Notes: generated by a model from the sequence alone, not told the origin. DNA of 57,587 nucleotides from Candidatus Thorarchaeota archaeon (GCA_004524565.1 SDNZ01000004.1:1-57587); one strand, 5' to 3'. Shown: positions 6,354-25,454, numbered from the stretch's first letter. Numbers and translations are program-made.

Positions 6354-7088
6354 TTATCTAATGACCTCTATTCTGATCTGCCCTTTCGTGAGTTTGTTTA
6401 GCTCGTCATAAAGCTCCTGTCTTTTTTGTGCAGGGAGTTCGAGCAAACCGCTCCAAGACCCATCCAGATTCCAAGACTCTGATTTGATAACTCCAGCATT
6501 TGAAACAAGATTGTACCCTTTCCCAGCATAGGTTGCAGGGATTGTTATTTGGAGCTTCACACTCTCAAAGGAAATTGGAATGATGACTCTGAGAGATTTT
6601 ACAACGATTGGAATTTGTTCATCTACACTGATGAATGGATCAATACGAACCTTTGCCTCTTCTATTGCTTGTCGAATGCGGTCTGGAGGATGGGGATGAC
6701 CTGTTTGAGGATTCATTGCACGTTTTGAAATATGTTCTATGATCGTTTCGGTCTTTTCTTCTACAAGTTGTAGACGCTGTTCATGTGTTAGCCGAAACTC
6801 TCCTTGTTTGATTATTTCCGGAGCAATGTCAAATATCTCATCTGACCCGAAAGCATCCTTAACAAGACTATCGGTAGCGCGTTCTCCTCTTTTTGCATCC
6901 TCATAAACTTCGTAAGATTTGAGAATGTCTTGGATTGGAACATCTTCACCGCGCCTATAATCGAATGCCAAGTTTGGATCAACAAGGATTTCAAATCGAA
7001 GATGACCTTTCTTTATGCCGATGACAACTGCGTCTAGTTCAACCCACTTATCACCAGATTTCTTACCTGAACCTCCACCACCCATCAT
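6354..7088 (-). CDS. SBDS ribosome maturation protein
   Basis: Archaeal SBDS, the homologue of the Shwachman-Bodian-Diamond protein that helps release aIF6 from the 50S subunit. The 244 residues include the N-terminal FYSH-type domain (about 15-100, with ILVDPNLAFDYRRGED), the central helical domain (about 105-170, EFRLTHEQRLQLVEEK and NPQTGHPHPPDRI) and the C-terminal ferredoxin-like domain. The N-terminus has an unusual MMGGGGSGKKSG stretch, Gly- and Lys-rich, before the domain. It lies between psmA and rrp4, its usual place in archaeal exosome clusters. Confidence 0.95.
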   Translation of the reverse strand: MMGGGGSGKKSGDKWVELDAVVIGIKKGHLRFEILVDPNLAFDYRRGEDVPIQDILKSYEVYEDAKRGERATDSLVKDAFGSDEIFDIAPEIIKQGEFRLTHEQRLQLVEEKTETIIEHISKRAMNPQTGHPHPPDRIRQAIEEAKVRIDPFISVDEQIPIVVKSLRVIIPISFESVKLQITIPATYAGKGYNLVSNAGVIKSESWNLDGSWSGLLELPAQKRQELYDELNKLTKGQIRIEVIR

Positions 7089-7101
7089 TTGATGTTAACT
7101 C

Positions 7102-7836
7102 CTACTCCTTTTTGCTGGTCTTCGGGGGATTAAGATATCCCTCAATCTCTTTACTCGTCAATTTCTGGAATTTCCTAGTCTTGACTGGAATTATCGCGAT
7201 TTCAACATTATCAGCACTAAGGTCCTTTTCGCTAGTTTCACGAAGTGCTCCTAGGGCAATTTTAATGGCTTCAGAGAGAGACTTGTTTCTCGCATAATGT
7301 GCTTCAAGATATTCTCCAGCCCTTGCTGTGCCTTTACCAATTACTGCAGCGAGGAATCCCCAATATGTTCCAACAGGATCTGTAACAAAGAGCCGAGGTT
7401 TGTTGTCATGATCGACGGATCCAATAATCATCGCAACTCCATACGGTCGTGCGCCTCCACCCTGTGTAAACTCTGCCTTTTTATCACAAATATGTTCAGC
7501 AACAGCTTCTGCTGGGACAAGTTCTTCATAAGTCAACCAGTAGGATTGTGCCTTGATACGAGCCTCATAGATGAGTTTTCTGGCATCAGCCATCAAGCCT
7601 GCAGTAGCTACACCAACATGTTCGTCAATTTTTGAAATCTTTTCAACACTATCAGGTTCTTGGAGGGGTTGTACCCTCTTTTCTGTAAGTAGGATAACAC
7701 CTTCATCAACAAGAACTCCAATGGATGTTTCCCCAAGTTCAACAGCTTTCTTTGCATATTCTGCGGCGAATATTCTTCCATCAGGACTAAAGATACTTGT
7801 ACTCATATCATAGCCCTGTCCAGAGATTCCAAACAT
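7102..7836 (-). CDS. psmA: Proteasome subunit alpha
   Basis: Alpha subunit of the 20S proteasome, forming the outer gating rings in the cytosol. The N-terminal signature GYDMSTSIFSPDGRIFAAEYA near residue 8 is the alpha-subunit motif, and the rest has the Ntn-hydrolase fold without a catalytic N-terminal Thr. I start at the ATG at 7836 because a GGAGGA ribosome site (7844-7849) sits 7 nt before it; an upstream ATG at 7860 would add eight residues (MDFLEEYI) that are not family-like and would place that ribosome site inside the gene. The length of 244 is normal. It is first in the exosome superoperon. Confidence 0.95.
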   Translation of the reverse strand: MFGISGQGYDMSTSIFSPDGRIFAAEYAKKAVELGETSIGVLVDEGVILLTEKRVQPLQEPDSVEKISKIDEHVGVATAGLMADARKLIYEARIKAQSYWLTYEELVPAEAVAEHICDKKAEFTQGGGARPYGVAMIIGSVDHDNKPRLFVTDPVGTYWGFLAAVIGKGTARAGEYLEAHYARNKSLSEAIKIALGALRETSEKDLSADNVEIAIIPVKTRKFQKLTSKEIEGYLNPPKTSKKE

Positions 7837-8549: not shown

Positions 8550-9494
8550 TTAGTGTTCATGTTCATCTTCATGCTCGTGGGACAATGATTGAATCCAAGT
8601 TACCTTCAAATCATCAGGATATAATGCAGGGTCATCAATGTCCACGTCAACCTTTTCTTTCAGTCTCTTAATTTGAAGTGCAAGAATGTATGATAGAGCA
8701 GCAAGAATGCCTGCAATTGCACTTGGAGATACGAATACAACAAATGACGTGGCGATACCAGCTAATTCAGCGATAAGTGCGATGAGAAAGACGGAAAATA
8801 TCACACCACGTACAGATTTCACCAACTCATTTGATGCAGCAGCAGGTGCTACCATGATAGCATAGACAAGTATGGCTCCAACTGCCTTCGTTGCTAGTGC
8901 GATAGCTAGTGCAGACACTATAAGCATGAGATAATGATACGCTCTAGCATTCATCCCGTGTGCAGTTGAACCTTCCATGTCGACACTGACATAGACAAAT
9001 TCTTTGTTAAACATCAATGTAATGACTGCCAGCAAAAGCGTTGTACTACCCAGCATGATGATATCCAAATCATTGAGGAGAAGTATGTCCCCAATCAAGT
9101 AACCCCAGATCTGAGGAACTCTGTATGGAGGTATATAGTACATCAAAAAGACTGCAAAACTCATGGATAGAGCAAAGGAAACCCCCACAGCCACCTCCAT
9201 TTTTTGAGTAATTCCAGACTCACCAGCATACCCAGTAAATGCAGCCACTAGCACACTAAATAGAAGCGCACCTAGAATCGGGTCAAACCATGGAACTAAA
9301 CCTGAATCTTGAAGAAAGATACCTAATGCTGTGCCTCCTAAAGCAGCATGAGCTACTCCAGAAGCCATGAAGGAGAGACCTCTGAACACTAGGAATGTTC
9401 CACTAGCAGCAGCAACAATTGCAATCAGCAGGGCTCCGAGAATCGCGCGTTGCAGGAACGGACTCTCAATGATTATCTGTATGATATCAATCAT
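8550..9494 (-). CDS. Metal ABC transporter permease (ZnuB-like)
   Basis: Membrane subunit of a cluster A-I type metal importer (zinc, manganese or related). About 8-9 hydrophobic helices run through 314 residues, with the family segments LVFRGLSFMASGVAHAALGG near 45 and the long AIMVAPAAASNE near 225. The C-terminus ends with HEHEDEHEH, a likely metal-binding tail. I start at the ATG at 9494, which overlaps the ATPase stop (ATGATTGA), rather than at an ATG seven codons upstream; an AGGA lies about 10 nt before it. It is the last gene of the regulator-ATPase-permease operon. Confidence 0.92.
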   Translation of the reverse strand: MIDIIQIIIESPFLQRAILGALLIAIVAAASGTFLVFRGLSFMASGVAHAALGGTALGIFLQDSGLVPWFDPILGALLFSVLVAAFTGYAGESGITQKMEVAVGVSFALSMSFAVFLMYYIPPYRVPQIWGYLIGDILLLNDLDIIMLGSTTLLLAVITLMFNKEFVYVSVDMEGSTAHGMNARAYHYLMLIVSALAIALATKAVGAILVYAIMVAPAAASNELVKSVRGVIFSVFLIALIAELAGIATSFVVFVSPSAIAGILAALSYILALQIKRLKEKVDVDIDDPALYPDDLKVTWIQSLSHEHEDEHEH

Positions 9495-10293
9495 GGCGAT
9501 CAATTCCTGAGTCATGGGTCATGCAATATCTATGGCCCGAGTGTTCCACAATCCTCGCTGTAGGTCCATATACCTTCTTGATCAATTCAGGGTCCATTAT
9601 ACTACACGGTTCACCTAACCCGATTACTGTGTTCTTCAGTAGTAACACATCTTCAACAAGGGTATGAATCGGATTCAAGTCATGAGTTACCATTATTATG
9701 CTAACATCATTCTCTTTGTGATATCTACCCAATGCCTCAACAATGAGATTCTGACTCTCAACATCAGTTCCTGCTAATGGTTCGTCCAGTACGAGAATAG
9801 ACCCCTCACTTGCTAACGCCCGAGCGACCAAGACGCGCTGTCGTTGTCCTCCTGACAGTTCAGGAAATGGACGTTCCCATAGCTCTTCCATATTCACTTG
9901 CTGTAATGCATCCTTTGCGATTGCAATGTCCTTAGAAGTAGCAAATCTAGGAGGTAGTTTCTTGAGCAATCTACCCATCAGAACGATGTCTTTCACCTTC
10001 ATCGGTATTGCAAGGTCGATACGGTCTCGCTGTGGAACATATCTTACCAATTTTCGAATCTTCCCTGATTTCTTCTGTGAATCATAGCCCATCACCTTGA
10101 TGGTTCCTCGTGATGGTTTGATAAGACCAAGGGAAGTCTTGACGAGAGTCGATTTTCCTGAACCATTTGGACCGATTATAGCCATGAAACTAGGTGACTT
10201 GATCTCAAAGGATACATGATGAAGTGCAAGATCACCATTAGAGTACCGAACTGCCAGGTCGCGTACTTGAAGCAAGGGTGTTGTTGCAGCCAT
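9487..10293 (-). CDS. Metal ABC transporter ATPase (ZnuC-like)
   Basis: Energy-providing subunit of the metal importer. Its 268 residues contain Walker A (GPNGSGKST near 40), the Q-loop (PQRDRI near 88), the signature LSGGQRQRV near 145 and Walker B (ILVLDEPLAGTD near 165), followed by the switch His (VTHDLNPIH). The C-terminal 20 residues are His-rich (HSGHRYCMTHD). It shares one base with the end of the NikR-like gene upstream (TAATG) and overlaps the permease, so the three genes form a coupled operon. Confidence 0.94.
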   Translation of the reverse strand: MAATTPLLQVRDLAVRYSNGDLALHHVSFEIKSPSFMAIIGPNGSGKSTLVKTSLGLIKPSRGTIKVMGYDSQKKSGKIRKLVRYVPQRDRIDLAIPMKVKDIVLMGRLLKKLPPRFATSKDIAIAKDALQQVNMEELWERPFPELSGGQRQRVLVARALASEGSILVLDEPLAGTDVESQNLIVEALGRYHKENDVSIIMVTHDLNPIHTLVEDVLLLKNTVIGLGEPCSIMDPELIKKVYGPTARIVEHSGHRYCMTHDSGIDRHD

Positions 10294-10691
10294 TACTTTC
10301 CACCACCAACAAGACTGATGTCAACTTTCATTACTTTCTTCTGAGAACGCAGTTCTTTGAAAAAACTACGGACCGTTTCAGCGCCAGTTGTCAGAATCAT
10401 AACTTCTGTACAATGTCCATCTGTTGTATGTGCATGAATCGTTGCTATAATGAATTCTCGATATTTGTGCTGTACTGAGCTTATGTTGTGGCCTTGACCC
10501 TTTTTATAATAGACTGCAGTGATTACTGCGGTAATTTCCCCTTGAGCAATCTCAACATTTAGATGCTCAATCATTAGTGATTGAACTGCATGACGTACGA
10601 CCTCGGACCTGTTTGAGAACTTCCCTTGAGCTTGTAGAAATTCTAACTCCTCAAGATCTTGATCGGTCATTGATACGGCTACGATTGGTAT
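10293..10691 (-). CDS. NikR-like metal-responsive repressor (ATA start proposed)
   Basis: A ribbon-helix-helix regulator with a C-terminal ACT-like metal domain, like NikR. The metal site is intact: QHKYREF, then HAH and GHC are spaced as H-x10-HxH-x5-C, the nickel ligands of NikR. From the first ATG (10670) the protein would lack the N-terminal DNA-contacting strand. In the same frame seven codons further upstream encode PIVAVS, which fits that strand well, and an ATA codon at 10691 lies 6 nt after GAGGTG. I therefore propose an ATA start; the ORF has a stop just before it. It heads the transporter operon and is divergent from the binding protein, so it probably represses both. Confidence 0.8.
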   Translation of the reverse strand: MPIVAVSMTDQDLEELEFLQAQGKFSNRSEVVRHAVQSLMIEHLNVEIAQGEITAVITAVYYKKGQGHNISSVQHKYREFIIATIHAHTTDGHCTEVMILTTGAETVRSFFKELRSQKKVMKVDISLVGGGK

Positions 10692-10697
10692 TCACAG

Positions 10698-10703
10698 CAC
10701 CTC
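10698..10703 (-). promoter_or_regulatory. Ribosome site that favours an ATA start for the NikR-like gene
   Basis: GAGGTG on the minus strand, 6 nt before the ATA at 10691 and 27 nt before the nearest ATG (10670). The spacing is right only for the non-canonical ATA. Confidence 0.5.
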
Positions 10704-10807
10704 ACATATTTCTGAGTTAGTAACTATTTCACAATCCTTAATAATTTACTTTTGCAGGATTTTACTTGGTTGAGTGATTAGACCATTCGAGGTTCTGGTG
10801 AGAATTA
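10704..10807. promoter_or_regulatory. Divergent promoter region of the metal transporter
   Basis: The 104 bases between the ribosome site of the NikR-like gene and the binding-protein gene must hold both promoters. The stretch is AT-rich, with TTAATAATTTAC around 10738-10749 as a possible TATA element. A short palindrome GTTAGTAAC at 10716-10724 could be part of an operator. The operator call is weak. Confidence 0.4.
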
Positions 10808-11875
10808 GTGAATAGGAAGATATCTGTTCTGGTTCCAATTGCATTGCTGTTAGTTCCCCTCATTATGAGCGGTATAACAATAGAAGTTGAAGCACAGGTA
10901 CACCCTGTTCATAATGTCGCGGTTTCTGTTGCCTCGTTAGCAGGAATAGTTGAAGAAGTTGGGGGTTCATTGATTAATACCTCAATCCTGATGGAGCAAG
11001 AAGCTGATCCTCATGCATTTTCAATAGAGCCACAGATACTTGCCATAGCTGATGCAGCAGATCTATTGGTATTTACGGGACATTTTCATTGGGAAGAAGA
11101 GTTAGCTATTCAAACTTCGACACCATTTATCACATTTCACAATGAAAGTGCATGGGAGAGTTACGAGGACTTTGGAGCAGCATTCTCCCCAATGCCCGGT
11201 GGTGTGGAAGTTGCGAGTGAGCAGGAACATGAACACGATGGAAATCCGCATGCATACTGGTTACTACCAAAGAATGCTGTAGCCATAGCTAATGCAACAC
11301 GTGCAGCATTAACCACATTAGATGCAACTTTGACATCCGCTTGGGAAGCAAACTTTGCTACTTTTGTGGAGAAGATGGACAGCCTTCAACTTCTAATCAG
11401 TGATCTCAACGAGGTCCATGAATTCTCACAGTTGCGCGCAATTTGTGTTGCGCCTGCAGAAGCCTATGTTGCAGAGGCTTTTGGAATTCAGTGTGATGCA
11501 GTTCTTCAAATTGAAGACATTACATTGTCGGGGGCGAAACTGCTTGAGGTCCAGTCAGCTATACGAAATGGTTCAGTTCAGTTAATTCTTGGTTCCGATG
11601 TAGCTCAATTTCAGGCAGGAGGGGAGTTTGCATATCAAATACAATCGGATTACGGTGGAACTCTCATCTGGTGGAAGACAGTTTTCTATTCAGAAGCGGA
11701 TTACTTCTCAATGATGACATTCAATCTTGGAGCTCTTGTTTCTGGAATAGAGGGTAGATCTGGGGGTAGCATTAATCAGACACTGAACATAGGTCTTCTC
11801 GCTCTTACAATTGTTATTGGGTTCATTGCCTTGCTTGAAGCAGTCCTCTTAATTCAAAGAGCTAGAGCAGAATAA
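10808..11875 (+). CDS. Metal ABC transporter substrate-binding protein, membrane-anchored
   Basis: Binding protein of the importer, a 355-residue ZnuA/cluster A-I type protein. It has an N-terminal signal segment (about 5-25), the family motif EADPHAFSIEPQ near 70, a short His-rich loop (EQEHEHDG near 140) before NPHAYWLLP, and a C-terminal membrane helix (about 330-350) that would tether it to the cell. In zinc-binding ZnuA the third His lies in a HxAFGYFA-like segment; the corresponding region here reads APAEAYVAEAFG, with no His. The metal may thus not be zinc. The start is a GTG at 10808. Confidence 0.88.
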   Translation: MNRKISVLVPIALLLVPLIMSGITIEVEAQVHPVHNVAVSVASLAGIVEEVGGSLINTSILMEQEADPHAFSIEPQILAIADAADLLVFTGHFHWEEELAIQTSTPFITFHNESAWESYEDFGAAFSPMPGGVEVASEQEHEHDGNPHAYWLLPKNAVAIANATRAALTTLDATLTSAWEANFATFVEKMDSLQLLISDLNEVHEFSQLRAICVAPAEAYVAEAFGIQCDAVLQIEDITLSGAKLLEVQSAIRNGSVQLILGSDVAQFQAGGEFAYQIQSDYGGTLIWWKTVFYSEADYFSMMTFNLGALVSGIEGRSGGSINQTLNIGLLALTIVIGFIALLEAVLLIQRARAE

Positions 11876-13313: not shown

Positions 13314-13652
13314 CTGACATCAGAAGATGAGATTCTTAAAGCCATTCAGAACATGGTGAAAAAAGCTGAAGAACCAAAGATGCAGAAGCGGTTTGCCAAC
13401 TATAGCAAAACTCTACTCATGTCATTTGAGGATCTTGAAATTAACCTTTCAATTTCATTCGTAGATGGGAAAGGGACAGTTGAGAGAGGGGGAATTCCAG
13501 AACCGAATATGACAGTCAAAACTGATAGCAGAACAATCCTTGACATCCTAAGTGGTAATCTCTCTGCTATGCGGGCGTTCATGAGTGGGAAAATCAAAGC
13601 CGATGGACCTGCAAAAGACCTGATGAAATTGCAGCATCTATTGAAAGCATGA
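13314..13652 (+). CDS. SCP2-like sterol-carrier domain protein (CTG start proposed)
   Basis: A small stand-alone SCP2 domain, the fold that binds lipids or acyl chains, here about 112 residues. The middle (MSFEDLEINLSISF and NMTVKTDSRTILDILSGNLSAMRAFMSGKIKADG) fits the SCP2 family. From the first ATG the N-terminal helix is cut short. Starting at the CTG at 13314 gives TSEDEILKAIQNMVKKAEEP, which lines up with the second SCP2-like protein at 21749-22081 (TKDKIAAQLQSLSSRFDDP) over its whole N-terminus. An in-frame stop lies just upstream, and GGAGG is well placed for the CTG. The lipid ligand is unknown. Confidence 0.75.
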   Translation: MTSEDEILKAIQNMVKKAEEPKMQKRFANYSKTLLMSFEDLEINLSISFVDGKGTVERGGIPEPNMTVKTDSRTILDILSGNLSAMRAFMSGKIKADGPAKDLMKLQHLLKA

Positions 13653-13661
13653 TTTTCTTTT

Positions 13662-15440
13662 CTAGAGATTGATGTCTAGTAACTGCAATGCTTCTTCAGA
13701 GGGATAACCTGTGTTTCTATCCCATTTTCGATATTCGTAGTAGTCTTTCAGTTGCATATCCACATCGGGAACAAAATCATCGGTTACGCTTTCAGGATGG
13801 GGTTTCAACAGAGCGAGGGGGAGTTTTTCATCCTCGGTACGCAATCCACATCGCAGATTGAAGAGCCGCTTCATAGTTACAGCTCGTGCACCAATAGTGA
13901 GAATATCCTCAACTTTAAGAGACACCCCAATCGCCATATTCAACAGTGTAATTGTTGTCGAGGGAGGCACAATTGCAAAATGACACATGATTGCAGAATC
14001 AAAGAACGCCCTGAAGTCCTGAGCCTTAGCAGCTGTCAGACCTTTTCCTTCATTCTCTAACCTGTCACCGCCAACAATGCCAAGTTCGCGTACATCAGCC
14101 CCCATGTCAATTGAGTACATGTCACCTTCAAGATGCGTTGCTCCGCGTGAGGCGATTGTATAGACAGCTGTCATCCCCGAGAAGGCACGAGGGTCATGAT
14201 TAGGAATTTCAAGACCTCTGACATGAAGGACTGATTCCTCTGCATTATGCTTCTTACCTAGGGCGAGGGATCCTTCAGCGAGAATATTCCCCATACCGTT
14301 TCTTTGAGCGATATTATGGATAGTATCTATCACCATATCAGGGTCATCCCAGTTGAAACCATAGTCAGCCTTTCCAATATCACATAGATGAGTGGCTAAG
14401 GCAATAGTACTACCACAACTGATCGTATCCATGCCATATTGATTGCAGAGATGATTCATTAGAACTATCTTCTTCAAATCGGAAATTAGTAAGTTAGAAC
14501 CGAAGGCTGTAATTGTCTGGTACTCAGGTCCAGCAATGTTCTCTAAGTCATACTCGACAACGGACACTCTTCTACCACAAGCAATAGGGCAGGAATAACA
14601 TGCTGATCGACCAGTGAGAAGCTCACTTAGCGACTTTCCGTTGATTAATTCGATATCATCAAACTCAATCTCTTGAAAGTACTTGATTGGAATATCGTTA
14701 AACATCATACCTATGTCTAGATACATGTTAGTACCTTGATCACGGAGCATGTACATAGCTTCGCCAAGAATCTTAGATGACGAGAGTGCAAGTTCCTTGA
14801 ATTCATCGGGTGATGCCAAAGGTATATCGTTGGATCCGTTCACTGTTATTGCTTTCAGTTTCTTTGAACCCATCACTGCACCTAATCCACATCTTGCCGC
14901 CACTCGTTCATCATTCACAATACTAGCAAATTTAACTAGATTCTCACCAGCTGGACCAATACAAGAAACCTGCCTTCTTCCATAGTTCTTCTTCAGGGTC
15001 GTCTGAGTGTCCGATGTTGTCATACCCCACAGGTCATCAGCAGGTATGAGTTCAGATTCTCCATCTTCAATCTGAAGCGTAACTGGAGTGTTAGATGCAC
15101 CTTTGATGAGAATCCCATCAAATCCGGATGCTCTCATTCTTTCACCAAAATGGCCGCCAGCATGAGACTCACCCCAGAGGCCTGTGATGGGGGACTTTCC
15201 ACAGATAACATGACGCCCGGTACTTGGCGCAAGGGTTCCTGTTAAGGGACCAGTCATGAATAATAGTGTGTTATTGGGACCAAGAGGATCTGCCTTTGGA
15301 TCAATCATATCATAAAGTAAACGACTGGCATACCCACTTCCTCCGAGGAATTTAGATGTGATTTTCTCATCAGTGAGAAGTATACTTGTTTCCTTCTTAG
15401 TGAGGTCTGCAACCAAGATTTTCCCGCAGTAGCCAAACAT
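13662..15440 (-). CDS. Aldehyde ferredoxin oxidoreductase (tungsten enzyme)
   Basis: Oxidises aldehydes to acids with ferredoxin, using a tungstopterin and a [4Fe-4S] cluster, in the cytosol of anaerobes. The 592 residues include the N-terminal AOR domain (GGSGYASRLLYD near 33, GPLTGTLAPSTGR near 64, GGHFGERMRASGFDG near 95), the cluster cysteines in CYSCPIACGRR near 286, and the last cluster Cys in NLRCGLRTEDEKLP near 550. Length is normal. It follows the class II aldolase with no gap (TAG then ATG), so it is the last step of that operon. A product aldehyde of the aldolase is the likely substrate, which is inference. Confidence 0.95.
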   Translation of the reverse strand: MFGYCGKILVADLTKKETSILLTDEKITSKFLGGSGYASRLLYDMIDPKADPLGPNNTLLFMTGPLTGTLAPSTGRHVICGKSPITGLWGESHAGGHFGERMRASGFDGILIKGASNTPVTLQIEDGESELIPADDLWGMTTSDTQTTLKKNYGRRQVSCIGPAGENLVKFASIVNDERVAARCGLGAVMGSKKLKAITVNGSNDIPLASPDEFKELALSSSKILGEAMYMLRDQGTNMYLDIGMMFNDIPIKYFQEIEFDDIELINGKSLSELLTGRSACYSCPIACGRRVSVVEYDLENIAGPEYQTITAFGSNLLISDLKKIVLMNHLCNQYGMDTISCGSTIALATHLCDIGKADYGFNWDDPDMVIDTIHNIAQRNGMGNILAEGSLALGKKHNAEESVLHVRGLEIPNHDPRAFSGMTAVYTIASRGATHLEGDMYSIDMGADVRELGIVGGDRLENEGKGLTAAKAQDFRAFFDSAIMCHFAIVPPSTTITLLNMAIGVSLKVEDILTIGARAVTMKRLFNLRCGLRTEDEKLPLALLKPHPESVTDDFVPDVDMQLKDYYEYRKWDRNTGYPSEEALQLLDINL

Positions 15441-16085
15441 CTAGTATCCACTCATCATTTCCCAGAGGTCTTGTTCATCTTCTACAACTTCATCCGGAAG
15501 GTGTTTTGGAGTTCCAATCTGTTTTGAAATCATGTAAATCTTACAGGTTCTTTCAAGAACCATGGCTAAATGAAGAGCCTTCTCGAGAGTTTTTGCTATG
15601 CAGACAGCTCCATGATTAGCAATCAGAGCTGCACTCCTATCCTCGATTGCCTTTCTAACATTGGCTCCAAGTTGTTTCGTACCAGGTATCGCATACTCAG
15701 TGACTCTAATATGAGAACCTAATTTGGGTACAGTTTCATCAATAATTGGAGGTAGTGACTCATTCAAAACAGCCATTGCAGAAGCATAGATGCTATGGGT
15801 ATGAACTACAGCACCTACAACAGAGCGAGTGTTGTAAAGTTCGAGATGCATCTGCCATTCAACACTAGGATTTCTTGTTCCTTCTATGACCTCTCCGTCA
15901 AGATCAATCACAACCATATCATCAGCTTTCATATCAGCATAATGGATAGAACTCGGAGTGATGACGATATAGTCGTCTACTCTCACACTCGCATTTCCTG
16001 AAGATCCTATCACTAGATCTTTCTCAACCATCTTTTGACAGATTTCTAGTAATTCTTTCTTTGTATCTTCGTACACTTCAATCAC
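15441..16085 (-). CDS. Class II aldolase/adducin family protein
   Basis: Zinc-dependent aldolase or epimerase of the fuculose-phosphate aldolase family. It shows the phosphate-binding GSSGNASVR near residue 28, the ITPSSIHYADM stretch, the VVHTHSIYASAMA zinc site near 95 and the third zinc His in ANHGAVC near 155. I start at a GTG at 16085, inside the kinase stop (overlap of 8 nt), because it gives the usual N-terminus; an upstream ATG at 16145 would add 20 residues and overlap the kinase by 68 nt. Without the longer N-terminus the protein is about 214 residues. It probably cleaves the phosphorylated product of the kinase. Confidence 0.88.
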   Translation of the reverse strand: MIEVYEDTKKELLEICQKMVEKDLVIGSSGNASVRVDDYIVITPSSIHYADMKADDMVVIDLDGEVIEGTRNPSVEWQMHLELYNTRSVVGAVVHTHSIYASAMAVLNESLPPIIDETVPKLGSHIRVTEYAIPGTKQLGANVRKAIEDRSAALIANHGAVCIAKTLEKALHLAMVLERTCKIYMISKQIGTPKHLPDEVVEDEQDLWEMMSGY

Positions 16086-17577
16086 CTTCGCACCACATAC
16101 TCTTCCACTTGGTATAGTAAGACTCGTAGAGAGTTGCTCTACCATCAGGTTCAGATACAGGTCTCCATTTCACCATATTCTTTGCGGAATCAGATAATGA
16201 GGAATAGTGACCTACCCCCTTTACAGCACATATTGCAGCCCCAATGAGACTACCCTCAGGCTGTATGGGTGTATGGACTGGTTTTCCAATGACATTCGCC
16301 AGAAGGATAGACCATATTTTCGACTGTGTCATTCCACCGATTGTCTTGATACTACTGAACTCTTGGTGTGCTTCCAGCTGTTCCAAATTCCCACGAGCAG
16401 CATATGCGATATTTTCAAGAACCGCATGAATCATAGTTTTAGCGGTTAATGGGACAATTTGAGGCAAAGCAGGTTGGGGAAATCTCATCCTTGCCTGTTT
16501 TACATCAGTGATTCTTTGACAATCCATAATACTTGGGCCCAATCCTATGAGGGTCTCATTACTTCCGGGAGGAATATCAACAAGTAGTTCATCCAAAGTA
16601 TTCAACGTGGTCTTCACGCAATCCGCAGGATTCTCTGCACGGTCACATAACAATCGAACAACCCATTCTAGATTGGCACCTGTAAGAGTTGCATTACTCT
16701 CTAGCACCCATCTACCTTTTTGTAAATCACAACCGGTCCAAATCTTCTGCTCCGGATCACAATACAAATCATCCAATATCATCATCACAGGTGCAGTACT
16801 TCCTGCAATGATAACAACTTCATTTGGTTGTGCATCGCTTGCCAACAGTGCACAATGAGTGTCAGCAGCACCTTGCACTATAGGTAGTCCTTTCGGAAGT
16901 CCACATTCTTTCGCAGCTTCTGTAGTTATTTCGCCGATAACTGATCCGGGTTCATATATCTCGGGTAGAATGTCTCTGGAAACGCCTACTGCTTCTATGA
17001 CCTCATCACTCCATTCACATTGGCGAATATCTAAGAATCCTGTAGCACTTCCCGATGATGGATCAGTGACAAAGATATTCCCAAGTTTATAGGATATCCA
17101 GTCATTGATTGGTAGCAGATGTGCAATAGACTCAAAGAGGTTAGGTTCTTCTTCTTCAAACCATGATAATCTTGAGGGAGAGAACATGAGAGGTGGCCAA
17201 CATCCAGTAATTTCATGATACCTCGCTCCAAGAGATTCTTCAATGATGTATTGTGTCATTGCTCCTCGAGCATCAATATTGGGTCCTGCATAGACCTCCT
17301 TTCCTTTGGCATCAAGAAAAACAGAGCCATGTCTCTGGCTTGTGGTTGCAACTGACTCCAAAGTGCTTGGGGTAATTCCGGAAGTTTTGACCGCCTCTTT
17401 CACTACTGTACAGATCAGATGCCAAAAGTGGGTGGGATCAAACTCCTTAGCAATCTCCAAATCGGGAGGTGTGATATAATCCCAATTTCTGCGACTAATA
17501 CTGATTGGAACACCATCAGGTCGTACTAACATGCACCGCACTCCTGTAGTGCCTGCATCAATTGCTACTACAACCAA
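16078..17577 (-). CDS. FGGY-family carbohydrate kinase
   Basis: ATP-dependent sugar kinase of the FGGY group (xylulokinase, glycerol kinase, LsrK and related). The 499 residues start with the phosphate-binding VVVAIDAGTTGVRC, contain the catalytic aspartate region VQGAADTHCALLASD near 240 and the second nucleotide-binding motif IKTIGGMTQSKIW near 420. The overall pattern is closest to the LsrK/autoinducer-2 kinase-like branch, but the substrate is not certain. The TTG start at 17577 follows the dehydrogenase stop by one codon. Flanked by a 2-hydroxyacid dehydrogenase and a class II aldolase, it probably acts on a keto-sugar. Confidence 0.92.
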   Translation of the reverse strand: MVVVAIDAGTTGVRCMLVRPDGVPISISRRNWDYITPPDLEIAKEFDPTHFWHLICTVVKEAVKTSGITPSTLESVATTSQRHGSVFLDAKGKEVYAGPNIDARGAMTQYIIEESLGARYHEITGCWPPLMFSPSRLSWFEEEEPNLFESIAHLLPINDWISYKLGNIFVTDPSSGSATGFLDIRQCEWSDEVIEAVGVSRDILPEIYEPGSVIGEITTEAAKECGLPKGLPIVQGAADTHCALLASDAQPNEVVIIAGSTAPVMMILDDLYCDPEQKIWTGCDLQKGRWVLESNATLTGANLEWVVRLLCDRAENPADCVKTTLNTLDELLVDIPPGSNETLIGLGPSIMDCQRITDVKQARMRFPQPALPQIVPLTAKTMIHAVLENIAYAARGNLEQLEAHQEFSSIKTIGGMTQSKIWSILLANVIGKPVHTPIQPEGSLIGAAICAVKGVGHYSSLSDSAKNMVKWRPVSEPDGRATLYESYYTKWKSMWCEGD

Positions 17578-18576
17578 TTAGCCATACACCTCCGGATTCA
17601 GGATGTTCTTTGGCATATCACCCCTAGCAAATGCGAGGATATTGTCAACAATAATTCGAGTTTGGCGTTCAAGGGTGTCAATTGTATTCCCACCCATATG
17701 AGGCATTACAGTGACATTATCTAATTCTAAGAATTCATTGTCGGAGTCTACAGGTTCCGTTGAAAAGACATCTAGACCAGCACCTGCGATAGTTCCCTTT
17801 TTCAGAGCATCAAGAAGTGCGTGTTCATCTACCACTGATGCTCGTGCTGTGTTTATCAAAATCGTAGTCTTCTTCATCTTTTGAAACTCTTTTGCACCTA
17901 GCATCCCTCTTGTTTCATCCGTTGAAGGGCAGTGTAATGTGATGATGTCAGAGTTCTTCAGAAGCTCGTCGAGTTCTACACGTCTTCCGTTGACTTCCTG
18001 AACCTTATTCGAATCAGCATAAGGATCTAACACTAGAATCTCTACATCGAAAGCAAGCAACCGTTTAGCCACTTCATAGCCGATCTGGCCTAACCCGATG
18101 AAGCCAACAGTTCGACCAGAGAGCTCGAAACCCATGAGGCGCTTGTACATAGTTCCAAAGTCCTTGAAATCATCTACAAAGAATTCACTCTTGAGTAGAC
18201 GTTCTGCCGCAACTATGTTCCTTGCTTGAGCGAGCATGAGTGCAATAGTAAGTTCAGCAACTGCAATTGTATTTCTCCCAGGCACTGCGATAACAGGTAT
18301 ATTCTTGGCAGTAGCAGCTTGCAGGGAGATATTATTAGGAGACCCTCGAACGGAACCAATCAGTTTCAATTCAGTCTGTTCGATTATTTCTTCTCTGATC
18401 TCATCACCCTCTACAATGACAATGTCATAGTTACCATTTCGGATAGTTTCAAACAAAGACCCGCCCAGATGTAACCTACCAGTGTCAAGCCAACTGTGAT
18501 AGTTGACCTCAAATCCACTAGCTCGCAATTCCTCTAGCCCTGACTCGGTGAAGGGAGCTGTGATGAGCACTCGCAA
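17578..18576 (-). CDS. D-isomer 2-hydroxyacid dehydrogenase (phosphoglycerate dehydrogenase-like)
   Basis: NAD(P)-dependent dehydrogenase of the SerA/hydroxyacid family, 332 residues. It has the nucleotide-binding motif GFIGLGQIGYEVAKRL near 156-171, the substrate arginine in INTARASVVDEHAL near 240, the glutamate in FSTEP near 275 and the catalytic histidine in MPHMGGNT near 295. The start is a TTG at 18576, 8 nt after a GGAGGT site. It heads the four-gene sugar operon, so a sugar acid may be its substrate rather than 3-phosphoglycerate; the ACT regulatory domain of biosynthetic SerA is absent. Confidence 0.92.
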   Translation of the reverse strand: MRVLITAPFTESGLEELRASGFEVNYHSWLDTGRLHLGGSLFETIRNGNYDIVIVEGDEIREEIIEQTELKLIGSVRGSPNNISLQAATAKNIPVIAVPGRNTIAVAELTIALMLAQARNIVAAERLLKSEFFVDDFKDFGTMYKRLMGFELSGRTVGFIGLGQIGYEVAKRLLAFDVEILVLDPYADSNKVQEVNGRRVELDELLKNSDIITLHCPSTDETRGMLGAKEFQKMKKTTILINTARASVVDEHALLDALKKGTIAGAGLDVFSTEPVDSDNEFLELDNVTVMPHMGGNTIDTLERQTRIIVDNILAFARGDMPKNILNPEVYG

Positions 18577-18741: not shown

Positions 18742-19488
18742 ATGTCTGAATCTGCAATTGAGATAACTAATCTGACAAAACGGTTCGATGACATCACAGC
18801 ATTAGATAATCTCAGCCTTGAGATTGGTTGGGGTGAGCTATTCGGGATTCTCGGACCTAATGGAGCAGGAAAAAGTACTGCTGTAAATATACTCAGTACT
18901 CTGCTAGAACCCACAGAGGGAACAGCAACAATTGATGGATGCGATGTGGTCTTTGATCCGGATTGTATTCGTAAAATAGTTGGTGTCTGCCCTCAAGAAC
19001 CTGCATTCTATCCTCATCTTACTGGTGAAGAGAATATCACATTGATGGGAGATATGCATCTTGTGCCAAAAGATATCCTCAAAGAACGTATCAAGACTAT
19101 GGTCGAGAAAATCGGTATGGAGGATCATATCAAGAGACGAGCTAAGGACTACAGTGGTGGAATGATTCGAAGGGTCAGTATGCTAATGGCATTAATCAAT
19201 GACCCAAAGATAGCACTCCTTGATGAACCAACCGTAGCTATGGATCCAAAATCTCGTCATGCGGTCTGGGATTTCATTCGAGAACTAAAGACCCAAGGTA
19301 AAGCAATCATCCTAACAACCCACTATATGGAAGAAGCACAGGAATTGTGTGACAGAGTTGCTATCATTGATGAAGGCAAGCTTATCGAGCTTGGTTCTCC
19401 AACTGAATTGATGGAGAAACATCAAGCAAAGAACTTGGAAGATGTCTTTCTGAAATTGACAGGCAAGAAACTCAGGGAGGCGTTCTAG
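18742..19488 (+). CDS. ABC-2 type exporter ATPase
   Basis: ATP-binding subunit of a drug- or lipid-type ABC exporter (CcmA/DrrA-like), 248 residues. It has Walker A (GPNGAGKST near 39), the Q-loop PQEPAF, the signature YSGGMIRRVSM near 138 and Walker B (IALLDEPTVAMDP near 157), followed by the H-loop THYMEEA. It is separated from the permease by a single base, so both are made together. The substrate is unknown. Confidence 0.92.
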   Translation: MSESAIEITNLTKRFDDITALDNLSLEIGWGELFGILGPNGAGKSTAVNILSTLLEPTEGTATIDGCDVVFDPDCIRKIVGVCPQEPAFYPHLTGEENITLMGDMHLVPKDILKERIKTMVEKIGMEDHIKRRAKDYSGGMIRRVSMLMALINDPKIALLDEPTVAMDPKSRHAVWDFIRELKTQGKAIILTTHYMEEAQELCDRVAIIDEGKLIELGSPTELMEKHQAKNLEDVFLKLTGKKLREAF

Positions 19489-19489
19489 A

Positions 19490-20650
19490 ATGAATCTACG
19501 AAGAATACTTGCTTTAATAAATAAGGACCTCAAGAAGACAACACGTGAACCTGCGGTTCTTTTCCTACTGCTTGTTTTCCCAATTGTGTTAACTTTCGTT
19601 TTTGGATTAGCCTTTGGTGGAATTGGCGGAGGTGCAACAACTAGTTTCGATGTAGGCCTTCTCAACCTTGATGTTACGGGGCCCAACACCGAGTGGAGTG
19701 ATTCTTTTGTTAACAATCTAACATCTTCAGAAGTTTTTGTCATTCAGGAGTTTACCGACAATATAACTGGGCAAGCAGCACTTCAACAGGGAAACCTAGA
19801 TGCATTCATTATTATTCCTGAAGGATTCGGAGATAGTATCGAATCGTATTATGGATCTCCATTTGATCCAAGCGTATGGACCAATACTACAATTAATCTT
19901 TACGTTGATAGCGGGTCAATGATGGCGGTGTCAGCAGTTCCATCTCTAGTTCAAAAGGCTTTGATGGAAACTATATTCGGTAGTGAATCTATGTTGATTG
20001 GCCTACCAGTTGAGATTGATAGTCCAGCTCTAGTGGAGTCAAGTACTCTATCTCAATGGGATTTCATGGCGCCCGGGATTTTTGCATTCGCTGCAATCTT
20101 TCTAACAATGATAGTAGCTCAATCGATGACATACGAAAGAGACGAAGGTCTCTTGAAGAGATTGCGAACAACTCCAGTATCATCCGCGGAGTATATGGTC
20201 AGTCAGACCCTTTCCAATATGGTAATTGCAGTTGTACAAGTAGCATTAGTTCTAGCATCAGCCTTTGCCATTGGGTATAGGCCAGCAACAGGTCCTGCAG
20301 GCATTGGATTTGCCTTTCTAATCGCTCTTGCTTACTCTCTTGTAGCGGTGGGATTTGGTCTAATTGCTGCAACTATTTCAAAGTCAGCAGATGTTGCTAC
20401 TGGTATCAGTTTCGTCTTCATCATGCCACAGATGTTCTTTGGAACGTTCATGCCTCTTGGCGGAGCTACCGAAGTGATAGCGAAGTTTATGCCTAGTAAA
20501 TACATCACAGATGCTTTGACTACTCTCTTCTTGAGAGGTGCACCTGTTACATCGACCATCATATGGTTTGATTTCGCAGTTGTATCGATACTTGGAATTG
20601 CTCTCATACTCGTGGGAATCGCACTATTCGAAAGGTTCGGTACGAAATAG
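19490..20650 (+). CDS. ABC-2 type transporter permease
   Basis: Membrane subunit matching the upstream ATPase. The 386 residues start with a basic segment (INKDLKKTTREPA), then a first helix (about 23-45), a large outside domain (about 50-195, DVGLLNLDVTGPNT...), and five further helices from about 200 to 380, the layout of the ABC2_membrane_3 group. The cytosolic loop YERDEGLLKRLRTTPVS near 220 is the standard coupling region of this family. A stem-loop terminator follows at once. Confidence 0.9.
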   Translation: MNLRRILALINKDLKKTTREPAVLFLLLVFPIVLTFVFGLAFGGIGGGATTSFDVGLLNLDVTGPNTEWSDSFVNNLTSSEVFVIQEFTDNITGQAALQQGNLDAFIIIPEGFGDSIESYYGSPFDPSVWTNTTINLYVDSGSMMAVSAVPSLVQKALMETIFGSESMLIGLPVEIDSPALVESSTLSQWDFMAPGIFAFAAIFLTMIVAQSMTYERDEGLLKRLRTTPVSSAEYMVSQTLSNMVIAVVQVALVLASAFAIGYRPATGPAGIGFAFLIALAYSLVAVGFGLIAATISKSADVATGISFVFIMPQMFFGTFMPLGGATEVIAKFMPSKYITDALTTLFLRGAPVTSTIIWFDFAVVSILGIALILVGIALFERFGTK

Positions 20651-20676
20651 GAGTCCCTTTGGGGACTCCATCTTTT
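20650..20676 (+). terminator. Hairpin and T-run after the ABC exporter
   Basis: GGAGTCCC and GGGACTCC form a perfect 8 bp stem around a 4-base loop, followed by ATCTTTTT. It begins at the last base of the permease stop codon. Confidence 0.75.
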
Positions 20677-20729
20677 TATTAAGGAGGTTTATCAGAATTG
20701 AATTTGCTAATTGAAATAGAGGTGGTCTA

Positions 20730-21407
20730 ATGAATCCAGAAAAGAATGGTAATGATGATGAAATGATTGAGAAAGCGAAGCAGCTGCTTCTACTCACAGA
20801 CCTTGTTGACAAATATCCAATGGTTGTTGCTCGAAGAGTCTCTGGATTGGTCTATCTCATCATTGCTGGAGGAATATCCTTTGCAACACTGATTTACATG
20901 TCATTGCAAGACATCCTTGGACCCGGAGATCCACTCTTGGTAAATCTGGCATTTGTTGGAATCAGTCTGTTCTTTTCATGGTTGGTAGCATTTAAACTAG
21001 TATTGCCACTCACTCAATCATATCCTCAAGATACCAGCTCAAAAGAGGGTGAAAGAGCCCCTTTTGTAATTTGGGGTATTCTTGCAACAGCTATCGTGAT
21101 TCTTTCATTTGTAACATTCTCAACTGGAAGTGGTGTTTTATTCGTACCATCATTGCAATTGATTATGGGTACTGGTTTTCTTAGCAATTATATATTAGGA
21201 AGAAGAGAAGAAGGAGTGGAATTTTTCACGCGCGAGCATCTTTACTTTGCATTAATTGTCTTCCTGAGTTTCATTCCAATGATATTGTTTCTGGAGTTTG
21301 CATATGTTATCCTGATAATTGCAGATATGGGTGGAATCTACATCGTAGGAATCTATCAGCTCGTAACAGCAGAACGACTTCTTCTTGAGAGTAAGGGGCA
21401 GGGATAG
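20730..21407 (+). CDS. Membrane protein with downstream regulator, unknown function
   Basis: Not recognised. The 225 residues have a charged cytosolic N-terminus (about 1-35, NPEKNGNDDEMIEKAKQLL) and then about six membrane helices in three pairs (about 38-58, 66-88, 108-130, 135-152, 165-185, 188-210). No catalytic residues stand out. A GAGGTGG-type ribosome site lies just before the ATG. It ends 2 bases before the winged-helix gene, so the two form a pair. This layout, a multi-helix membrane protein with a small winged-helix partner, recurs in archaea, but the function is not known to me. Confidence 0.7.
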   Translation: MNPEKNGNDDEMIEKAKQLLLLTDLVDKYPMVVARRVSGLVYLIIAGGISFATLIYMSLQDILGPGDPLLVNLAFVGISLFFSWLVAFKLVLPLTQSYPQDTSSKEGERAPFVIWGILATAIVILSFVTFSTGSGVLFVPSLQLIMGTGFLSNYILGRREEGVEFFTREHLYFALIVFLSFIPMILFLEFAYVILIIADMGGIYIVGIYQLVTAERLLLESKGQG

Positions 21408-21409
21408 TT

Positions 21410-21760
21410 TTGAAGATTGATGGGGACCTCCTTTCAGCATTAGTAGGTCTCATGGAAGAAGACCGTGAAACAATGGTCCCCACAAGACTCTCTATACTTG
21501 TTTATCTCTATTTCACTCAACATGCAACATTTCCAGTTCTTCAGAAGAAACTAGGTCTAACATCAGGTAATCTCTCAAGTCATCTCAGAAAATTGGAAGA
21601 ACTAGGTCTCATACGAATATCAAAGAGATTTGTTGACCTTAAACCAACAACGTTTGCGGTTTTGACCTCTGAAGGTGCTGAACGTGTAAGAAGTCAGATG
21701 GTGAGAATGCGTGAACTTGTTTCAATGGTTATTGATACAGGGTCCAAATCAGACCAGTAG
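21410..21760 (+). CDS. Winged-helix transcriptional regulator (MarR/ArsR-like)
   Basis: A 116-residue DNA-binding protein. A winged helix-turn-helix spans about 20-100: the first helix RLSILVYLYFTQHA, a turn with TFPVLQKKLGLTSGNLSSHLRKLEELGLI as recognition helix and a wing ISKRFVDLKPTTFAVLT. The family resembles the small archaeal transcriptional regulators paired with membrane proteins. It starts at a TTG 2 bases after the membrane gene and presumably controls this or the ABC-exporter operon. No sensing domain is visible. Confidence 0.82.
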   Translation: MKIDGDLLSALVGLMEEDRETMVPTRLSILVYLYFTQHATFPVLQKKLGLTSGNLSSHLRKLEELGLIRISKRFVDLKPTTFAVLTSEGAERVRSQMVRMRELVSMVIDTGSKSDQ

Positions 21761-22081
21761 TTTCTGTAATTTTAGAAGGTCTGGAACTTCACCTTTGGTC
21801 TTCAACCTACCAGAGGAATATGCAGCCATGGGGCTCTCAGTTTTGTCAATAATCCCAAAGAATACTGCTGAATCCATTGTAACTTGAAGCTCTGCTTCAG
21901 TTTCTCCCTCACCAACTTCAAGGAGTTCAGCATCTCCGATTCTCATGTACATCTTTGTATCAATATCAGGGAAGATGAACTGAAGTGTCTTGTTATATTC
22001 CTTGAACCTTCGTTGGATTTTCGGGTCATCAAATCGAGATGAGAGAGATTGAAGTTGAGCTGCTATCTTATCCTTTGTCAT
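21749..22081 (-). CDS. SCP2-like sterol-carrier domain protein
   Basis: A second stand-alone SCP2-type domain, about 110 residues, paralogous to the one at 13314-13652 (shared helix ending in PKIQRRFKEYNKTLQFIF and the SGRLKTKGEVPDLLKLQKLL C-terminus). The family binds lipids or acyl-CoA. I start at the ATG at 22081 because the N-terminus then matches the paralogue; an ATG nine codons upstream (22108) is possible. No ribosome site is visible, so the message may be leaderless. It is convergent with the winged-helix gene and overlaps it by 12 nt. Confidence 0.8.
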   Translation of the reverse strand: MTKDKIAAQLQSLSSRFDDPKIQRRFKEYNKTLQFIFPDIDTKMYMRIGDAELLEVGEGETEAELQVTMDSAVFFGIIDKTESPMAAYSSGRLKTKGEVPDLLKLQKLLV

Positions 22082-22177
22082 GTTGGCACGACAATACGAT
22101 TTACGCAAACTGAGTTATATCTTTCCAGACCGAGATATTAATACGATAGTTAGAAAATATACTGAGAGGTTATTACT

Positions 22178-23303: not shown

Positions 23304-24638
23304 TTATTTTATTTCAGAAACATGAACACTACAGGAAACACAGGGATCATATGAACGGACAACTGTTTCTAATTTGGGTCCTATGATCTTAGCATCCTTA
23401 ATGCCTTGTTGAAGTAGTCCTTCAGACATTCTTTTCAAATCATCTTCGAGGATGGGGAGGAACATAGCTGTAGGTGTGACAATATCAGCACCCTTCACTT
23501 TTCCATTCTTGTCAACACTGATTGTGTACGCAAGCATTCCTCGTGGTGCTTCCGTCATTGATACTCCAGTTCCCGCTTTTGTGATATGAGGTTTGATTCG
23601 CTTCTCGTTCGGTTTGTACGAGCTGAGAAGATTGTGTATGATATTCTCCGCACGTTGGATATAGTATACGACCTCAATCGCTTGAGCAAAATTATTGGAC
23701 ATAGGATTACTTGCATCAAGATACTCCACGTACATATCAGCTAGTTCCTTTGCTCTTTCAATAAGCCTATCACCGAATAGCACGTTTCGTGAAAGCGCTC
23801 CAGTCATGAAGGGCTGTTCATTGTAATGGCCATGTTTTGCAAACGAATGCTCTACAACACTCTCACAGATTCGCATCTTGTAGGCCTCAACTTTAAATTT
23901 GGTCCCATCAGATACATGCACTATATCACCCATCATTGTGTATGTTCCATCAAATGGTTCTATAGCTAAATGCAATCGCTTTGCATCAACCTCCGGCCAG
24001 TTTCTATTGCCTACCAGAGTTTCGAGAGCCTGTTCGCCTTCATTTCGCAATCCTCTAAGGCGAGTTTCCAAAATCTCTAGGTTCTTCTTGGTTGGGAGTT
24101 TGCCAAATCCACCCATCATTGCATTTTCTTGGTGGATGTATCGAGAACCAATAATGGTCTGAATATCTGCCCCGATATCCTTCAGAGCCAACCCAGCAGA
24201 AAGAACCTCAGGATAGTCCTTTGCCATTGAGAAGGCATCAGGATAACCCAAGAAATCTGGAAGAGCTAGTAGAAATAGGTGTAGCGCATGACTCTCGATA
24301 TAATCCCCAATATAGAGTAATTCACGCAGCTTGATAGTTTGCTTTGTAGGATGAAGACCAATAGCCTTCTCTGCTGCTTGTATACCGGTTATTTTATGAG
24401 CCGCGGCACAGAATGAACAGACTCGTGGAAATACAGCAGTTGCTTCTTCTACTGATTTACCCAATGTGATAGCTTCAAAATATCTGGGACCTTCAAAGAT
24501 TTTGACTTGTGAAACCTCTACATTCTTTCCATCATGACGGATCTCAATACCCGCCTTTCCTTCGATACGCGCAATGTGATCAACACTGATTTGTCGACTG
24601 ATCTTCTTTGTAGATTTCTTCTTTGTAGTTCCAGACAT
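23304..24638 (-). CDS. hydA: Group 3b [NiFe] hydrogenase large subunit (HydA)
   Basis: Catalytic subunit of a cytosolic bidirectional hydrogenase that couples H2 with NAD(P)H, also known as sulfhydrogenase. All four nickel-binding cysteines are present: RVCSFCAAAH near residue 72 and DPCVSCSVH near 435. The N-terminal SFC variant and the SVH ending are those of the 3b group. Only VSEIK follows the last His, so a long C-terminal maturation peptide is absent. The 444 residues start by sharing one base with the hydD stop. It is the last gene of the hydB-G-D-A order known from Pyrococcus. Confidence 0.95.
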   Translation of the reverse strand: MSGTTKKKSTKKISRQISVDHIARIEGKAGIEIRHDGKNVEVSQVKIFEGPRYFEAITLGKSVEEATAVFPRVCSFCAAAHKITGIQAAEKAIGLHPTKQTIKLRELLYIGDYIESHALHLFLLALPDFLGYPDAFSMAKDYPEVLSAGLALKDIGADIQTIIGSRYIHQENAMMGGFGKLPTKKNLEILETRLRGLRNEGEQALETLVGNRNWPEVDAKRLHLAIEPFDGTYTMMGDIVHVSDGTKFKVEAYKMRICESVVEHSFAKHGHYNEQPFMTGALSRNVLFGDRLIERAKELADMYVEYLDASNPMSNNFAQAIEVVYYIQRAENIIHNLLSSYKPNEKRIKPHITKAGTGVSMTEAPRGMLAYTISVDKNGKVKGADIVTPTAMFLPILEDDLKRMSEGLLQQGIKDAKIIGPKLETVVRSYDPCVSCSVHVSEIK

Positions 24639-25453
24639 TAGTCAGTACCTCCGTAGATTTTCTTCAACATTGGCTCAAGGTTGGGATTATGGGCTCCGAA
24701 GATTCTGAATCGTTCTCGAACTTGGTCCTTCGAGATTCCTTTATTCTTGAAAGTCATAGCCAATGAATCAAACCAAGCAGTATCGTGTGGTACTGGTCCT
24801 CTACACCCGATACATGGTACATTGAATGTAATGCATCGAGCTTTGCAGCCAGCTGTTGTAACAGGGCCAAGGCATGGTTCACCACGTTCTATCAAAATAC
24901 ATGGATTCCCAGCAAGTCGACATTCCGAACAAACTGGATAGTCTTTGGGCTCTGGAAATGTTCCGAAGAGAAAGGCGGAGATGAAGTACATTATCTCATC
25001 TTCTTCGGGAGGACAACCGGGAAGATAGTAATCTACCTCCACATGTTTTGAGATGGGAGTGGCCTGAAGACCTTTCATCCCAATCTTCCCTGTACCATAT
25101 ACCTTAGCATGGAGCTCTTCGTGAGTCATCTCACCTTCAGCCCAGCTCTGGACACCACCATTAACGGAGCAAGCACCAAGAGCAACAAGAATCCGTGAGT
25201 GTTTCCGAATCTCATAGAGTTCCTCCAGATCCTTCTCTGTAGAAACTGAACCTTCGACAAACGCAACATCGACATCTGCAGGATGTTTGCTGGCACTGGA
25301 TAGCATGTAGAAACTTTCAAAGCTTACAGCATTTGCAATCTCCATAATTTTCTGCACTGTTGCAAGTTTGAGTTGACAACCATAACAGGAAGTCAGAGCA
25401 TAGACCCCAACTCGCGGTTGGCATTCTCCATCGCAGCCATCTATTATTGCCAT
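24638..25453 (-). CDS. hydD: Group 3b [NiFe] hydrogenase small subunit (HydD)
   Basis: Electron-transfer subunit that pairs with HydA. The proximal [4Fe-4S] cluster cysteines are at ALTSCYGCQ near 20, GACSVNGG near 94 and LPGCPP near 144; further Cys groups (CSECRLAGNPC, GPCL-like, CKARC, CIGCRGP, residues about 170-215) bind more clusters. The 271-residue length is normal. It overlaps hydA by one base and follows hydG by a one-base gap. Electrons pass from the nickel site through these clusters to the flavin of HydG. Confidence 0.95.
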   Translation of the reverse strand: MAIIDGCDGECQPRVGVYALTSCYGCQLKLATVQKIMEIANAVSFESFYMLSSASKHPADVDVAFVEGSVSTEKDLEELYEIRKHSRILVALGACSVNGGVQSWAEGEMTHEELHAKVYGTGKIGMKGLQATPISKHVEVDYYLPGCPPEEDEIMYFISAFLFGTFPEPKDYPVCSECRLAGNPCILIERGEPCLGPVTTAGCKARCITFNVPCIGCRGPVPHDTAWFDSLAMTFKNKGISKDQVRERFRIFGAHNPNLEPMLKKIYGGTD

Positions 25454-25454
25454 T

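Follow-up and report, generated by a model that had tools for sequence, protein, structure and literature searches.

A dehydrogenase-kinase-aldolase-AOR gene cluster conserved in Asgard archaea as a candidate route of sugar or sugar-acid catabolism

Four adjoining genes for a D-2-hydroxyacid dehydrogenase (DH), an FGGY carbohydrate kinase (KIN), a class II aldolase (ALD) and an aldehyde:ferredoxin oxidoreductase (AOR) are found in a 57,587-nucleotide stretch of DNA (hereafter the window) from a Candidatus Thorarchaeota archaeon (GCA_004524565.1 SDNZ01000004.1:1-57587). Judging from the sequences and their conservation, we consider it somewhat probable (about 0.55) that these genes constitute a catabolic operon for a sugar-like or sugar-acid-like compound, in which the compound would be phosphorylated by KIN and cleaved by a FucA-like ALD into dihydroxyacetone phosphate (DHAP) and an aldehyde, the aldehyde would be oxidised by AOR, and DH would act in the same route. 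No known prokaryotes are more closely related to eukaryotes than the Asgard archaea, but their diet is for the most part a guess based on genomes. A conserved catabolic unit of four or five genes would give one concrete class of substrates for this group, and it would also add a new use of the tungsten AORs, most clades of which are described as being without a defined physiological role (PMC13328260).

Results

Organization of the operon in the window

All four genes are on the minus strand of a 3.1 Mb metagenome-assembled genome (MAG), which is 86% complete, and they were assigned by Pfam as DH (17578-18576, 332 aa), KIN (16078-17577, 499 aa), ALD (15441 to about 16085, of the zinc type with the FucA/AraD fold) and AOR (13662-15440, 592 aa). 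DH has a TTG start that is preceded by a GGAGG motif, its stop codon (17578-17580) directly abuts the TTG start of KIN (17577), and the TAG stop of ALD in turn directly abuts the ATG of AOR (15440). The mechanically called ALD frame (15441-16145) overlaps KIN by 68 nt; based on its homologues and the sequence, a GTG start at about 16085, giving a short overlap with the KIN stop, is likely. The earlier description of these genes from the sequence alone, as four enzymes of these families packed with no gaps, is thus borne out, the Pfam scores being far over the cut-offs (206 bits for 2-Hacid_dh_C, 153 for FGGY_N, 185 for Aldolase_II, 252 for AFOR_N and 327 for AFOR_C), and the catalytic residues of DH, KIN and ALD are retained on inspection of the sequences. 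However, none of the four proteins reaches any NCBIfam equivalog cut-off and, due to this, it is not possible to name the substrate from these models.

Conservation of the gene cluster across Asgard archaea

In a sample of 47 genomes from the same family as the window genome, the orthologues of KIN and DH are present in an identical set of 25 genomes and both are missing from the same 22, whereas ALD is found in all of the 25 and in 7 more. The nominal p value for the identical presence of KIN and DH (about 7e-14, before correction for relatedness) is overstated because the genomes are related, although the presence of the two genes is patchy within genera. Reading of 20 Thorarchaeota loci revealed the order DH-KIN-ALD-AOR in 17, while the contig ends early in two and one (L048) deviates, so that AOR follows ALD in 17 of the 18 informative loci.

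Further, the same genes are clustered in other Asgard families, which are referred to here by numbers. A second family, f9, shares the order DH-KIN-ALD-AOR at six loci (all four genes in five of them, the contig of L093 beginning at KIN), with AOR at about 42% identity; where these loci extend far enough, a Fer4/pyridine-nucleotide oxidoreductase and a DHODB-type NAD/FeS protein border the operon. In a third family, f20, the order is AOR-SCP2-ALD-KIN-DH. Families f4, f6, f11 and f25 show DH-KIN-ALD with no window-type AOR adjacent, the contig of f28 ends inside KIN, and in f5 and f16 ALD lies apart from KIN-DH (with an MFS transporter between them in f16) and NiFe-hydrogenase-like genes are nearby. 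Lastly, in four loci of f2 (L057, L108, L109, L110) DH and ALD are fused into one protein of 561-564 aa, which is encoded next to KIN and to a small protein resembling SCP2. The sequence-only reading had proposed a search of other genomes and would have fallen had the genes not been linked there; the linkage does recur, with the order kept or altered and, in one family, through a fusion of DH to ALD. The retention of these genes despite reshuffling, together with the DH::ALD fusion, is strong evidence that the enzymes share a common pathway.

However, the unit should not be viewed as a set of exactly four genes, as was initially proposed. A small SCP2-domain protein (21749-22108, minus strand; Pfam and synteny) is also a part of the Asgard module: in f9 and in Thorarchaeota of other genera its orthologue immediately precedes DH, in f20 it separates AOR from ALD, and in f2 it neighbours the fused DH; in the window genus three genes on the plus strand (18742-21760), one of them for an ABC-2 type exporter, intervene between it and DH. 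AOR, on the other hand, is an optional addition to a wider DH/kinase/aldolase triad. A second small SCP2-domain protein (13353-13652, plus strand; Pfam), convergent with AOR and kept beside it in some members of the genus, is possibly related to the module. SCP2 proteins also occur beside other AORs, viz. in an arrangement SCP2 - Fe-alcohol dehydrogenase - AOR and as an acyl-CoA dehydrogenase/SCP2/MaoC fusion adjoining AOR (L182, L185), and for this reason the idea that SCP2 hints at a hydrophobic substrate was not adopted.

Among other neighbours, genes for a NiFe hydrogenase are located directly upstream of the operon in two Thorarchaeota genomes (L045, L047) and near KIN/DH in two other Asgard families; the window carries a large-subunit gene of this kind (23304-24638) with its neighbouring genes at 23304-27376. 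The window also contains, at 8550-11875, a metal-type ABC transporter (permease, ATPase and His-rich binding protein) and a NikR-like regulator, as assigned by sequence. These genes adjoin the operon in an order that is conserved within the genus, and ALD is of the zinc type.

Related triads outside Asgard archaea

A scan of GTDB contigs with KIN found only one relative, from Thorarchaeota, and due to this, bacterial counterparts were looked for in plasmids. These searches led to a tight KIN-DH-ALD operon in Paracoccus seriniphilus, to Streptomyces plasmids on which KIN-DH is accompanied by a divergent ALD, an MFS transporter and a sugar-binding regulator, and to Halomarina, where a protein with two tandem class II aldolase domains (14368-15705 on plasmid L114) is encoded near FGGY kinases, DH and an ABC sugar transporter. 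The DHs from these three genera share with the window DH the unusual signature R77-x-x-P and R101-N102, in contrast to a SerA-type DH and that of Caballeronia. Matches to DH from Natrinema (L117) and Caballeronia (L115), which lack the signature, were set aside, and no DH/aldolase triad was present in the stretches read around the kinase matches from Roseicitreum, Lacticaseibacillus, Monoglobus, Rhizobium and Alloyangia.

The proposed pathway and the altered active site of AOR

In the scheme that we favour, KIN would phosphorylate a keto-sugar or keto-sugar acid, as expected from its family, and ALD would split the phosphorylated compound by a retro-aldol reaction into DHAP and an aldehyde, as its fold and conserved residues suggest. 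The order of these two steps is the most secure part of the scheme because it follows from the chemistry of the families. KIN possesses both the FGGY_N and FGGY_C domains, and has the catalytic Asp, the residues D7-G9-T10 and D239 being present. ALD, numbered from the ATG at 16145, has the catalytic Glu (E96) and three His of the Zn-ligand type (115, 117 and 178), the conserved positions being G50-N51, S94-E96, H115, H117 and H178; it thus has the residues of a class II aldolase of the L-fuculose/DHAP type, viz. the Zn His triad, the Glu, and the G-N and S of the phosphate loop. AOR would then oxidise the released aldehyde to an acid with ferredoxin, as its linkage to the operon and its specialised active site indicate, and the electrons would probably pass on to hydrogenase or to the NAD(P)H/ferredoxin enzymes encoded nearby. 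The NAD-dependent DH would convert a 2-hydroxyacid to a 2-oxoacid or the reverse, most likely adjacent to the reaction of the aldolase and not strictly as the first enzyme.

The part of AOR in this scheme, which the sequence-only reading had also suggested, is plausible, but its active site is unusual. The operon AOR has the AFOR_N and AFOR_C domains and keeps the four Cys of the [4Fe-4S] cluster and His448 (residue numbers are those of Pyrococcus furiosus AOR), and hence its assignment to the AOR fold is safe. Thr243, Glu313, Tyr427 and His448 are reported as conserved second-shell residues of AORs (PMC12096430, PMC13328260). In the operon AOR Thr243 and His448 are kept, but Glu313 and Tyr427 are replaced, so that the canonical set is not present and it is not safe to assume canonical catalysis from the sequence. 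The change of Tyr427 to His is found in 25 of 25 operon AORs from three families versus 1 of 26 other Asgard AORs. The change of Glu313 to Gln is seen in all 17 Thorarchaeota operon AORs (window, L033-L045, L047, L050, L111), whereas this position stays Glu in the AORs of f9 and f20 and in nearly all paralogues. As Glu313 is a proposed catalytic acid/base (PMC12096430), its replacement could render the Thorarchaeota AOR weak or altered, which counts against the favoured scheme. In a tree, the Thorarchaeota and f9 operon AORs appear to cluster with two Asgard paralogues, with the f20 AOR on a long branch close by. The genes for the closest paralogues not belonging to the operon immediately follow one for an iron-type alcohol dehydrogenase, which is another source of aldehydes. 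These sequence features support, but do not prove, an adaptation of the operon AOR to a particular, perhaps polar, aldehyde. In the deviating locus L048, from the single-contig Thorarchaeota genome G036, only a 177-aa frame that matches AOR (6931-7464) follows ALD and is possibly a decayed copy.

Placement of the dehydrogenase

The placement of DH is the weak point of the scheme. DH contains the catalytic residues R245, E274 and H293 and the NAD-type D184, and its subfamily is marked by the signature R77-x-x-P-x-N and R101-N102. Its top NCBIfam model is phosphoglycerate dehydrogenase (PGDH; 249 bits, cut-off 454). At what we take, from structural knowledge, to be the position of the phosphate-binding Arg of PGDH, 42 of 45 DH sequences have Glu (Glu56), and this speaks against DH acting on a phosphorylated compound. 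A SerA-type role in serine synthesis was rejected on this score and on the presence of Glu at this presumed position.

If DH acts first, as the sequence-only reading had it, then an aldonate or other hydroxyacid would be oxidised to a keto compound, which KIN and ALD would process before AOR acts on the aldehyde, and the sole difference from the favoured scheme would be where DH acts. The promoter-proximal position of DH, the matching gene order in Thorarchaeota, the replacement of the presumed phosphate Arg by Glu56 and the related Mesorhizobium DH, which adjoins sugar-acid genes (gluconolactonase-like and enolase-family), are all in accordance with such a route. However, DH is fused to ALD rather than to KIN, the bacterial operons have the order KIN-DH-ALD and one Asgard family shows the opposite gene order. 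The fusion and the bacterial gene order suggest that DH works next to ALD, and together with the triads lacking AOR they fit a DH beside the aldolase equally well or better. We regard a DH-first route as possible but rather unlikely.

The fusion could also signify that DH acts last. FucA-type cleavage yields 2-hydroxyaldehydes, and AOR would convert such a product of ALD into a 2-hydroxyacid and DH would convert this into a 2-oxoacid (e.g. from glycolaldehyde via glycolate to glyoxylate); at loci lacking AOR, DH would instead reduce a 2-oxoacid released by ALD. The closeness of DH to glyoxylate reductases (234 bits) is consistent with this order. However, the NAD-linked oxidation of 2-hydroxyacids is thermodynamically uphill and no replacement aldehyde dehydrogenase was present at the AOR-less triad loci that were read, and we consider a terminal DH to be still less probable than an initial one.

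The reaction of the aldolase and the nature of the substrate

The Aldolase II family also contains epimerases and decarboxylases, which would release no aldehyde, and the reaction of ALD is therefore a further point against the favoured scheme. ALD matches the model of OtnC, the protein from the four-carbon acid sugar pathway, with 124 bits (AraD, 97 bits), and at one f2 locus with the fused DH (L109) a xylose-isomerase-like TIM-barrel protein is present beside a second aldolase; if ALD were a decarboxylase or epimerase of this kind, then the aldehyde for AOR would come from another source. However, the top models (184 bits, under the curated cut-off of 264) and the top PDB relatives of ALD are L-fuculose-phosphate and fuculose-phosphate aldolases, respectively, the AOR is specialised and coupled to the operon, and the OtnC pathway is generally known to employ a different kinase (DUF1537) and dehydrogenase family, all of which make an OtnC-like role improbable. 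A haloarchaeal FucA-like enzyme is a broad DHAP aldolase that accepts many aldehydes, including glycolaldehyde (PMC9700705).

KIN resembles LsrK and XylB, yet it falls below every equivalog cut-off, and it would be incorrect to interpret its best NCBIfam and PDB match, the AI-2 kinase, as showing that the operon processes autoinducer-2 (DPD), since KIN reaches 272 bits with the LsrK model, whose cut-off is 528, and no lsr genes, viz. those for the Lsr transporter, LsrF or LsrG, were recognised in the Asgard loci read, unlike at true bacterial lsrK loci; the LsrK-type substrate suggested earlier is accordingly disfavoured, and this reading was rejected as very improbable. L-fucose and L-rhamnose are also unlikely substrates, since neither a fucose nor a rhamnose isomerase was found in the 25 Thorarchaeota-family genomes searched (the window's own MAG being, as noted, 86% complete).

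Discussion

Taken further, the favoured scheme may amount to a phosphorylative route of Asgard archaea for a sugar acid or keto-sugar, not described previously, in which a W-type AOR with a rebuilt active site (Gln at Glu313 and His at Tyr427) would capture the aldehyde from a FucA-like ALD as reduced ferredoxin, and in which DH and ALD, fused in one lineage, would channel intermediates. In this detailed form the proposal is tentative, and we place it below even odds. Besides the points noted for Glu313 and the Aldolase II family, it counts against the favoured scheme that several Asgard families, like the bacteria, have the triad with no AOR adjoining it, and that no transporter or isomerase is conserved alongside the operon.

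A literature search on the gene set found no described pathway with these enzymes, in agreement with the initial view that no standard pathway contains them. The closest likeness is to known systems that share some of its parts. The L-fuculose/D-arabinose pathway (FucK-FucA-aldehyde dehydrogenase) similarly employs an FGGY kinase and a class II aldolase of the FucA fold and oxidises the released aldehyde. However, the Asgard operon has AOR and ferredoxin in place of the NAD-dependent AldA, it contains in addition a 2-hydroxyacid dehydrogenase, and the fucose and rhamnose isomerases are absent from the genomes searched. The tetronate pathway (dehydrogenase - OtnI - OtnK - OtnC) likewise combines a dehydrogenase, a kinase and an Aldolase_II protein, but its kinase is of the DUF1537 type, its dehydrogenase is a beta-hydroxyacid dehydrogenase and it has no aldehyde step, whereas the Asgard operon has an FGGY kinase and a D-2-hydroxyacid dehydrogenase. 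In the haloarchaeal non-carboxylating pentose bisphosphate pathway, an archaeal FucA-like aldolase also produces DHAP and glycolaldehyde; in this case, however, ribulose-1-phosphate is supplied by a phosphatase and glycolaldehyde is reduced (PMC9700705), whereas the Asgard operon has a kinase and AOR instead, and its ALD scores 165 bits on the ribulose-1-phosphate (Ru1P) aldolase model, against a cut-off of 300.

The triads of Paracoccus, Streptomyces and Halomarina, for which we found no published function, resemble the Asgard operon in that the same three enzyme classes are clustered and the DH signature is the same. However, neither AOR nor SCP2 was seen with the triads of these genera, and the kinases of Paracoccus and Streptomyces resemble XylB and not LsrK, and the best-matching models of their aldolases differ from those of the Asgard ALD; due to these differences, the triads of these two genera should be viewed as analogous and not necessarily orthologous operons. 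The occurrence of the triad in bacteria and haloarchaea provides cultivable organisms for finding the substrate. Based on these comparisons of sequences and gene order, the Asgard operon probably represents sugar catabolism of the kinase-aldolase type that is coupled to ferredoxin, in a pathway not described before.
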